From: Mucilaginibacter sp.
GTDB lineage: Bacteria; Bacteroidota; Bacteroidia; Sphingobacteriales; Sphingobacteriaceae
Reading direction: 5' to 3'
NCBI RefSeq assembly: GCF_028288205.1
Contig: NZ_JAQBOD010000062.1
Span: 124,001 to 188,000 of the forward strand
DNA length: 64,000 bases
Below the pieces are notes generated by a model that did no database searches, was not told the origin of the DNA, and worked only from the letters and a program-made list of their open reading frames with translations. Of this stretch, positions 19,604-60,507 are shown one piece after another. The stretch's first letter is position 1; each line of letters opens with the position of its first letter. The position numbers and the translations under genes were made by a program.

Positions 19604-19627
19604 GATTGCTTCGTTCCTCGCAATGAC
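19604..19627. repeat. Partial copy of the CATTGCGAG/GAAGCAATC repeat family
   Basis: The minus strand reads GTCATTGCGAGGAACGAAGC and continues AATC, the same half-element found at 43575-43606. It sits between the GH3-type gene stop and the dxr start and supplies the false upstream start for dxr. Confidence 0.7.
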
Positions 19628-22931: not shown

Positions 22932-23046
22932 ATTGTCATTTCGAACGATAGTGAGAAATCTTATACACTGTGCAAATTTTGCGATGCATGGTGTATAAGA
23001 TTTCTCTTCACACCGGAGGCCTACGCTTGCTCATCGAAATGACAAT
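22932..23046. repeat. Nested inverted-repeat element (115 bp)
   Basis: Outer arms 22932-22944 and 23034-23046 pair perfectly over 13 bp (ATTGTCATTTCGA and complement). Inner arms 22954-22968 and 22991-23005 pair perfectly over 15 bp (core AATCTTATACAC). Architecture and outer sequence resemble the 43.6-kb repeats, suggesting one REP-like family. It separates the two GT2 genes and would fold into a long cruciform or RNA hairpin. Confidence 0.8.
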
Positions 23047-43456: not shown

Positions 43457-43575
43457 TAATTAAATTTTTGGCAAAAATGTGATTTTAAAACGGAATAAAG
43501 CGCTATTTGTTAGTGGAAATTTTATAGTTGAATTGTAATTTGTTTAGTTCCAATTGTTTTTGCCGAAAAAAGATT

Positions 43576-43827
43576 GTCATTGCGAGGAGGAACGACGAAG
43601 CAATCGCTGACTATGTATCGTCTGCTTAGCTTCCTTGCGATTGCCACGCTACGCTCGCAAGGACAAGAAAACGGGGAGGAACGACGAAGCAATTGCTGAC
43701 TATGTATCGTCTGCTTAGCTTCCTTGCGATCGCCACGCTACGCTCGCAAAGACGAAGCAATCGCTGCTGACTTTGCATCGCTTGCTTAACTTCCTTGCGG
43801 TTGTCCGCGTTACGCTCAAAATGGCAA
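43576..43827. repeat. Tandem palindromic repeats (three copies)
   Basis: Three tandem copies of a unit GACGAAGCAATCGCTGACTA...CGATTGCCACGCTACGCTCGC start at 43594, 43683 and 43751 (spacing 89 and 68 bp). TTGTCATTGCGAG at the left pairs with CTCGCAAGGACAA at the right of copy one (12 of 13), and GCAATCGC with GCGATTGC internally. The third copy is diverged. It directly precedes the GIY-YIG gene. Confidence 0.8.
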
Positions 43828-43846
43828 GAATTATTTATTATTGTAT

Positions 43847-44146
43847 ATGTATAAAATGCATCTATATTATGTTTACATGGTTACCAATAAAGGAAACACA
43901 GTAATTTATATTGGCGTTACTAATGATGTTCGACGTAGAATTTGGGATCATAAACAAGGAGTAAACAATGGCTTTACAAAACGATACGGATGTAATAAAT
44001 TAATTTACTACGAAGAATTTCAATGGATACAAGATGCTATTGCCCGGGAAAAGCAGCTAAAAGCTGGTTCAAGACAAAAGAAGGTTGATTTAATAAATTT
44101 TGAAAATCCTGAATGGTCAGATTTGAGTGAAGGATGGTATGATTAA
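43847..44146 (+). CDS. GIY-YIG nuclease domain protein
   Basis: About 99 residues, a single-domain GIY-YIG protein (PF01541). YYVYMVTNKGNTVIYIGVTN holds the GIY (YVY) and YIG strands; Arg in RRRIWDHK and Glu in AREKQLK fit the catalytic Arg and Glu, so it should be an active nuclease. ATG at 43847 was chosen; ATG at 43856 is equally possible and TTG at 43841 less so. The gene is flanked on both sides by copies of one repeat family. Small members of this family have unknown targets. Confidence 0.85.
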   Translation: MYKMHLYYVYMVTNKGNTVIYIGVTNDVRRRIWDHKQGVNNGFTKRYGCNKLIYYEEFQWIQDAIAREKQLKAGSRQKKVDLINFENPEWSDLSEGWYD

Positions 44147-44189
44147 ATAAATACTTGCCGGGATTGAGGGGACGCCTAACACGAATTAA

Positions 44190-44325
44190 CACGTCTGCTT
44201 AGCCTCCTTGCGATTGCCACGCTACGCTCGCAAGGACAGGTTAGAGATAGGGGACACCTAACACGAATTAGCATATGGTTGCTTAGCTTCCCTGCGGTTG
44301 TCCGTGCTACGCTCATAATAGCAGG
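44190..44325. repeat. Diverged repeat copies after the GIY-YIG gene
   Basis: GTCTGCTTAGCCTCCTTGCG and following CGATTGCCACGCTACGCTCG (44194-44235) and a second copy (44278-44325) repeat the 43.6-kb unit. A shared leader GGGGAC(G/A)CCTAACACGAA at about 44169 and 44249 gives a period of about 80 bp. The right copy enters the ctlX C-terminus. Confidence 0.75.
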
Positions 44326-60121: not shown

Positions 60122-60150
60122 ATTTTTTAACCAGCAAATTTTATTATCAA

Positions 60151-60507
60151 ATGAAACGCTTTATCTACATTATTACAGACAGAAACAGGAATAACCTGCA
60201 CGTTGGGCTATGTTCAGACCTATTAAAGACCCTTAAATTTTATGGCGATATGCCTACTTTATTCTTTGACAGCGCGCAGCAATTGAACAGGCTGGTTTAT
60301 TTTGAAGAGATAAATACAGAAGAGCAGGCAATGGAGCGTTTTAAAACAGTGAGCACTTTTACAAGGCCCCAAAAAGAAAAAATGATCAGACCTGTTAACC
60401 CGGATTGGGTAGATCTGACCATTGGCTTAAATTTTGAAAGCGGTTTACGCACCAGGCCGCAATTGCGCCCTTCAATAAACGCATTACGCAGATCGGTTAC
60501 TTTTTAA
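60151..60507 (+). CDS. Degenerate GIY-YIG-fold protein
   Basis: A 118-residue protein that aligns by eye with the 43.8-kb GIY-YIG nuclease: FIYIITDRNRNNLHVGLCSD versus YVYMVTNKGNTVIYIGVTN, YFEEINTEEQAMERF versus YYEEFQWIQDAIARE, and NPDWVDL versus NPEWSDL. Catalytic positions are altered: YIG is HVG, the Arg region is KTLKFYG, and the Glu position is Phe. It is therefore probably not a nuclease but may bind DNA or the repressor. Divergent from the XRE-S24 gene; overlaps the tail of msrB by 11 bp. Confidence 0.7.
   Translation: MKRFIYIITDRNRNNLHVGLCSDLLKTLKFYGDMPTLFFDSAQQLNRLVYFEEINTEEQAMERFKTVSTFTRPQKEKMIRPVNPDWVDLTIGLNFESGLRTRPQLRPSINALRRSVTF

Follow-up and report, generated by a model that had tools for sequence, protein, structure and literature searches.

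A small GIY-YIG nuclease gene bracketed by CGTC-type REPs: a probable mobile REP element with an enzyme unrelated to RAYTs

The described systems closest to the locus reported here are the REP/RAYT (TnpA-REP) elements, REPtrons and REPINs, in which, according to the portions of that literature drawn on here and partly as general background, a small gene is bracketed by inverted palindromes that carry a fixed unpaired tag, solitary repeat dimers are numerous, and enzyme and repeats diversify together. The RAYT enzyme is an HUH tyrosine (Y1) transposase, and the tag of its repeats is GTAG. Another superfamily, the CGTC-REPs, was said to “apparently lack a dedicated transposase” (Di Nocera et al. 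2013, PMC3733652); the sections of that paper used here place these repeats in several phyla, count among them the dRS3 repeats of Neisseria (CGTC-1 of the Neisseriae) and RPE-4 and RPE-6 of Rickettsia, report no tyrosine transposase gene flanked by CGTC-REPs, and contain no mention of GIY-YIG proteins.

We analyzed a 64,000-nucleotide stretch of a Mucilaginibacter genome (the window), in which a GIY-YIG nuclease gene is flanked by GTC-tagged palindromes (Table 1). The locus shares with the RAYT systems a small gene flanked by inverted palindromes of constant tag, the many solitary dimers and the co-diversification of gene and repeat, and the gene is bracketed by REPs that match its clade, as a RAYT or REPtron would be, which is a likeness of working and not homology. 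The enzyme, however, is a GIY-YIG nuclease whose nearest fold is itself that of a GIY-YIG protein, and the repeats carry GTC and a stem that starts with AT; within 250 bp of 72 nuclease genes (from the best 80 of 581 relatives), strictly defined hairpins tagged GTAG numbered 0 and those tagged GTC by the same definition numbered 96. The preliminary description of this locus had likened it to RAYTs: the likeness of working has held up, in the association of gene and repeats, their co-diversification, their joint absence at several orthologous sites and the lack of such repeats beside Y1 genes, whereas membership was rejected because the protein has a GIY-YIG family match and fold and because the repeats are tagged GTC. 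Among openly licensed PMC papers (preprints excluded), we found no report linking GIY-YIG genes to REPs, and what would be new here is the arrangement of REPs with a dedicated enzyme unrelated to RAYTs.

Table 1. Positions of the nuclease gene and of the repeats within the window
Feature	Coordinates	Strand	Details
GIY-YIG nuclease gene	43856..44146	+	96 aa; Pfam match, residue alignment, AlphaFold2 model
Palindromic CGTC-type REP dimer 1	43575..43665	+	Units 43576-43605 (+) and 43639-43664 (-, tag GTCC); fold z -2.7
REP dimer 2	43672..43753	+	95% identity to dimer 1; left tag decayed
Degenerate REP dimer 3	43748..43826	+	Overlaps end of dimer 2
Right-hand half unit	44192..44238	-	Unit 44212-44237; tag points away from gene; 98% over 47 nt
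Diverged right-hand half unit	44279..44323	-	Sequence comparison
Solitary REP unit, ATTGC type	19604..19627	-	Same type as copies at nuclease gene
REP dimer, ATTTC type	22932..23045	+	Includes unit 22935-22960; fold z -8.2

The start of the nuclease gene, whose neighbors we take to be speA and ctlX, was taken as the ATG at 43856 (MHLYYVY...), with same-frame alternatives at ATG 43847 and TTG 43841; the open reading frame ends at 44146. PF01541 (GIY-YIG) is the sole Pfam family detected in the protein (64.1 bits; cut-off, 22.6), and the AlphaFold2 model forms one domain with a mean pLDDT of 94.9. In an alignment with 71 relatives, Y7, Y18, G20, R28, E65 and N84 are invariant and H32 is conserved in at least 90%, all of which we take to be GIY-YIG catalytic positions; the catalytic Tyr, Arg and Glu that had been read from the sequence of the window nuclease are among the invariant residues. 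Eight of 15 pairs of nuclease genes gave dN/dS values of 0.04-0.19, the other pairs being saturated at synonymous sites and yielding no value; the gene is under purifying selection, and its active site is intact. The closest solved structure is UPF0213 protein BH0048 (1zg2; E of 1.2e-4 by fold and 1.2e-9 by profile), and by these structure and profile comparisons the protein resembles the small GIY-YIG proteins of UPF0213/YhbQ type in fold and size. Slx1 (0.027) and the GIY-YIG domain of UvrC (0.12) matched the fold below significance, and defence-system models gave only weak matches to the nuclease family. Slx1 is a nuclease that cuts branched DNA (PMC6902002, in the part of that paper used here), and the modeled likeness to it is compatible with hairpin or cruciform substrates while proving nothing.

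Purifying selection, a single small domain and some likeness to Slx1 are what would be expected of a domesticated nuclease for resolving cruciforms formed by REPs, or of one for which REPs serve as terminators or regulators of its own gene. Such a housekeeping role is nevertheless very improbable, given that the gene has a patchy distribution (found in 162 of 296 Bacteroidota genomes at E<=1e-12), often occurs in several copies of which some are broken, is absent at orthologous sites and, in Azospirillum lipoferum, is situated between sufB and sufC.

Each palindrome consists of two inverted units, a unit being GTC plus a small hairpin that usually starts with AT. The 3.9-Mb window genome contains 174 units of the form GTCATTKCGA-N8-24-GMAATC and 0 of the reversed pattern, so that the units are not due to chance. 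Their variable stem positions covary: 110 pairs are G..C, 48 are T..A and 0 are mismatched in 158 distinct unit contexts of the fetched loci, and at least one mismatched G/T..C/A unit occurs among the genome-wide matches listed. The genome-wide search for repeats and GIY-YIG paralogues that had been proposed as a check returned, besides these units, nine GIY-YIG matches, of which seven are small, and all seven small ones have a genus-type unit (ATTKC; one mismatch allowed in this count) within 250 bp. Around the six other small copies, the inverted arms outscored all 30 shuffles in five (L002 to L006; L006 narrowly, 18 against 15); L008, near a contig end, had no clean inverted-arm pair around its nuclease gene when compared with 30 shuffles. 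The window gene scored 9 against a best of 14 among 30 shuffles and, because it has no single clean pair of inverted arms, is an untidy, rearranged example of the gene with its repeats. At L004 (1400-1480), a neighboring gene, presumably lnt (apolipoprotein N-acyltransferase), has a REP unit at its 3' end, and the frame of this gene seems to extend into the repeat and stop there.

The repeat copies near the window gene are roughly 80-90 nt long. Three of them stop 20-29 bp short of the ATG starts, and the first of two diverged ones lies about 46 bp past the stop codon, close to the 20 and 50 bp originally estimated; the further copies noted at 19604, beside what was labeled as, and is presumably, dxr, and in related form at 22932 likewise proved real. 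The latter is of the ATTTC type, which in the window genome accompanies the other nuclease clade (L004). Single-strand folding is modest for the copies around the gene (z of -2.7, -0.6, -0.9 and -2.1).

Relatives were found by protein alone, through a scan of a species-genome collection with a 22-protein alignment, and repeats were counted at the 72 loci that had 250 bp on both sides of the gene among the best 80 of 581 relatives. A GTC unit lies within 250 bp at 65 of these 72 loci and on both sides at 46, and in 42 the tags point outward with the gene between them, an arrangement absent in the other 30; each of 12 control three-base tags gave the outward arrangement at 0 of the 72, units on both sides at 0-4 and any unit at 3-22. 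In the same set, from the best 80 of 581 relatives, GTC units reach a density of 4.83/kb near the gene versus 0.47/kb beyond 1 kb, and the 12 other tags range from 0.08 to 0.69/kb near the gene. The unit was present in 20 of the 21 named phylum- or class-level groups represented among these best 80 of 581, and the outward arrangement in 17, with nine loci from unnamed bacteria set aside in both counts. Another set, comprising 28 loci from Bacteroidota, had a unit on any side in 23, on both sides in 16 and in the outward arrangement in nine, the corresponding ranges for control tags being 1-7, 0-1 and 0. Genes with no repeats beside them, which had been named as grounds for abandoning the link, do exist: seven of the 72 loci from the best 80 of 581 relatives (L157, L160, L161, L198, L208, L214 and L220) have no unit within 250 bp, but they are exceptions to the 65 that do.

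Across 60 genomes, at least three genus-type units (ATTKC) occur in 41 of 44 gene-positive genomes (match at E<=1e-15) and in three of 16 gene-negative ones (Fisher p of 5e-8, which ignores kinship; the cut-offs were chosen by us), and co-occurrence in relatives is thus borne out for genomes as it is for loci. Repeats in relatives that lack the gene, the other ground for doubt raised at the outset, occur at this cut-off in three gene-negative genomes, G017 (467 units), G051 (14) and G049 (5); a PF01541 search of G017 and G051 found only other GIY-YIG proteins and no nuclease of the window type. Three genomes (G038, G041 and G058) have the gene and no ATTKC unit, and other stem types occur in their fetched loci L311 (G038), L312 (G058) and L315 and L316 (two of the four of G041). 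The 467 units of G017 could reflect either loss of the nuclease after their spread or another mobilizer.

A RAYT or other transposase might instead move the REPs, with the nuclease gene riding between them or landing in REP hot spots. Y1_Tnp matches are present in 52 of the 60 relatives, REPs are targets for insertion sequences (PMC1525189, as stated in its title), and G017 has units and no nuclease, all of which agree with a passenger gene. The control genes argue against it. A genus-type unit lies within 250 bp of the nuclease at 28 of 30 loci (three from other families, one repeating an own-genome copy), in addition to the seven own copies, but at 0 of the 30 best Y1 loci (19 from the genus and 11 from other families, some of the latter wholly without genus-type units) and 0 of 20 RAYT-like loci (weaker Y1 matches, mostly 176-209 aa, all from the genus). 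Anywhere in the roughly 3-kb loci, such a unit occurs in 29 of 30, 0 of 30 and two of 20, respectively. Under a looser definition of the GTC tag, 21 of the 30 nuclease loci have at least one unit and 16 show the arrangement, compared with any unit in two of 30 Y1 loci and one of 20 RAYT-like loci (on one side) and the arrangement in none; control genes were taken as the longest frame over the match, possibly the wrong frame in a few. Five genomes (G002, G023, G032, G036 and G045) have units and the nuclease and no Y1 match, and the match between nuclease clade and stem type inside one genome (see below) would go unexplained unless gene and repeats always travel as one unit. We consider a passenger nuclease quite unlikely, and spread driven by a RAYT was dropped from consideration in view of the empty Y1 and RAYT-like loci.

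Nor is the association a property of small GIY-YIG genes in general, a proposition that we rejected. Unlike the nuclease, another GIY-YIG orthologue of the genus (20 loci, all from the genus, mostly about 118 aa) has a genus-type unit at 0 of 20 loci, both within 250 bp and anywhere in 3 kb, and under the looser definition any unit at three of 20 and the arrangement at none. The window contains a second GIY-YIG gene at 60145-60420 (+), with a 136-aa open frame, whose presumed orthologues are these 20 loci. Six further GIY-YIG loci, small or partial, come from G003, G007 and G017; among them, L382 has a CGTC-like unit close by, and L379 has loose matches only; by the 83-aa GIY-YIG frame of the latter (L379, 1131-1802, in G017) are three identical stretches that resemble tRNA T-arms, and most of its loose matches are tRNA-arm-like.

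Gene and repeats are also absent together at several orthologous sites. In A. lipoferum 4B, a REP pair, the gene and another REP pair lie between sufB and sufC, a site at which A. oryzae, A. ramasamyi and strain B510 have neither gene nor REP. A Shinella site is filled in WSC3-e and HZN7 and empty in H4-D48. At a Sphingobium site, the element is present in three strains (in TYG73 with a frameshifted gene), a single closed palindrome takes its place in TYG64 and TYG74, and TYG72 and TYG65 have no palindrome; Sinorhizobium strain K101 likewise has one closed palindrome in place of REP-gene-REP. At the window site, the flanking genes are adjacent in 23 of 29 relatives' loci, with spacings of 85-216 bp in 17 and 560-1444 bp in six (856 bp in the window); at this site, 0 of the 29 match the window gene at the nucleotide level, and only one, L253 (gap of 1180 bp), has a repeat match there. 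The 50-kb segments of Sphingobium hold two to seven units each, and a 50-kb stretch of A. lipoferum holds only three, all at the nuclease gene, versus 0 in its A. oryzae counterpart. Overall, there is good support for the gene and its repeats being a single mobile unit.

The presence of dimers varies as well. Six REP sites were taken from two 20-kb stretches of the window genome; at all five with alignable flanks, one or more relatives lack the own dimer, and a different or decayed palindrome is sometimes found in its place. At one site (L364, 4889-5022), relative G064 (L375) has a GTCATGCT-type unit where the window genome has an ATTGC-type dimer, placing two REP types at one site. No exact insertion border or target-site duplication could be read in Sphingobium, Azospirillum or the nearest relatives within the genus, in the last case because the spacers are too diverged. 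We compared the inner ends of eight solitary own-genome dimers of 118-134 bp, drawn from 18 gene-less pairs (shorter ones and one of 259 bp were left out), with those of the gene element: in six, one inner end resembles the 5' side of the gene element and the other its 3' side (each p<=0.006), and the L018 and L027 dimers match in part. In Sinorhizobium meliloti Ak57, a 3' remnant of the gene persists inside a REP pair, next to an intact REP-gene-REP. On the strength of these ends and this remnant, the six dimers look like internally deleted, non-autonomous copies of gene elements. Terminal inverted repeats and non-autonomous derivatives, by which insertion sequences and their MITEs are classically recognized, are both present, and like bacterial MITEs these derivatives are short and keep both ends; here, however, the parent is without a known transposase, and a target duplication was not seen, the spacers being too diverged.

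The closed palindromes bear on a further reading, that of homing, in which the nuclease would cut a closed REP palindrome and the gene would be copied into the loop by break repair, with the arms as homology, thereby spreading itself and not the repeats. GIY-YIG is a classic homing-endonuclease domain, and it occurs here with its residues intact in a mobile gene whose only product is a nuclease; TIGR01453 matches weakly in eight of 22 members and a PADLOC homing-endonuclease model in two of 22; and TYG64, TYG74 and K101 have a closed palindrome at sites where relatives have REP-gene-REP. Such palindromes may equally be deletion products, however, and we dropped the view that they can only be sites of insertion because deletion yields an identical picture. 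No closed palindrome is found in Azospirillum, Shinella or most relatives at the window site. Unlike the genes of GIY-YIG homing endonucleases, the gene is bracketed by its own repeat family, is intergenic and has gene-less derivatives, and because its distinct inner ends recur in the dimers, dimers arise from gene elements at least as much as gene elements do from dimers. Homing is, on balance, unlikely.

Nuclease clades and REP stem types tend to correspond. A wide tree comprises 123 genes, of which 96 carry a single clear stem label, and needs 17 changes of stem type, compared with a mean of 40.5 and a minimum of 35 when labels are shuffled. A tree of the genus (58 genes, 51 labeled; 100 columns, with many weak forks) needs seven, against a mean of 21.2 and a minimum of 16 for free shuffles and a mean of 16.8 and a minimum of 8 for shuffles within the 12 genomes that have at least two types; 0 of 2000 shuffles of either kind reach seven. 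The WNYNFYVYI clade pairs with GTCATTTC, the GGCVYI and HQYYVYI clades pair with GTCATTGC, the KQGYVYIMSN clade has mostly GTCATGC, and the YNFFTYILTN clade has a mixture of GTCATCCT, ATTCT and ATGCT; L294 and L318 have a stem type unlike that of their own clade. Nuclease clade and REP stem therefore co-diversify, also within genomes, a pattern that joint travel of a gene with its flanking units explains as well as direct recognition does.

Judged by their sequences, the units of the window genome fit the published CGTC-REP superfamily, with which, as the relevant sections of Di Nocera et al. (2013) describe it, they have the tag, the dimer layout and usually the AT stem start in common. For the unpaired CGTC or TGTC tag, the GTC tag is enriched near the genes and TGTC occurs in the window; an AT start is usual, although the right-hand units of the window read GTCC; and dimers in the window genome are mostly inverted. 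The units differ in that many stems are shorter or interrupted compared with the 8-9 bp of CGTC-REPs, and their tails are TCT or CCA, often not the CCA of CGTC-REPs. A gonococcal relative of the nuclease gene (40.7% identity) lies among 16 units of ATTCCC-N8-GGGAAT within 2264 bp, a form that we take to be dRS3. Since CGTC-1 of the Neisseriae is dRS3 (PMC3733652, in the sections used here), this array would link dRS3 to the same gene family.

Taken with the alternatives above, the most economical reading, and in our view probably the correct one, is that the nuclease is the enzyme moving the REPs, the whole being an autonomous REP element analogous to RAYTs but with an unrelated enzyme. The minimal mobile element would comprise an outward-tagged REP unit, the nuclease gene and a second REP unit. 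The nuclease would recognize the hairpin of its own REP type, single-stranded or as a cruciform, and cut near the unpaired GTC foot, after which host repair may help to copy or insert the released or broken ends elsewhere. GIY-YIG enzymes hydrolyze DNA without a covalent intermediate, and rejoining would therefore need other proteins. Internally deleted copies that keep both ends could be moved in trans and so accumulate as solitary REP dimers, with single units as further remnants. We lean, by a little, toward a broader proposal: that these elements are a class of their own among autonomous bacterial transposable elements, with a single-domain GIY-YIG nuclease as sole enzyme, which makes and spreads CGTC-REPs (dRS3, RPE and relatives) over some twenty phyla through cuts at the hairpin foot and host repair, as a second, unrelated invention of the role that RAYTs play for GTAG-REPs.

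If the GIY-YIG gene encodes the enzyme, the question of a CGTC-REP transposase that PMC3733652 left open could be put to the test using synthetic hairpins and a protein of 96 residues. An unrelated nuclease fold would then be able to support the spread of REPs, genes annotated merely as “GIY-YIG nuclease family protein” would gain a role, and very small nuclease-hairpin pairs would be at hand whose specificity differs by clade inside one genome.

Several loci show nuclease genes close together. At L306 and in genome G037 (C5:13130-14016), two equally scoring nuclease genes lie about 600 bp apart, suggesting tandem duplication, and clusters of three occur in G146 (C86) and G133 (C31). In a plasmid collection, the 11 loci examined (from 11 of 32 matching records) have a unit in 10 and the arrangement in seven, with unit sequences that vary by lineage; R. 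tumorigenes (L141) has no inverted arms around the gene. One of these records (CP090106, L137), named as Sinorhizobium meliloti “plasmid pSymB,” may be a chromosome because it is 3.7 Mb long and carries lpxB, and the collection includes other chromosome-sized records too. On a Planktothrix plasmid (L134, 1684-2600), the nuclease gene lies between an MmeI-like gene and the DISARM gene drmA.
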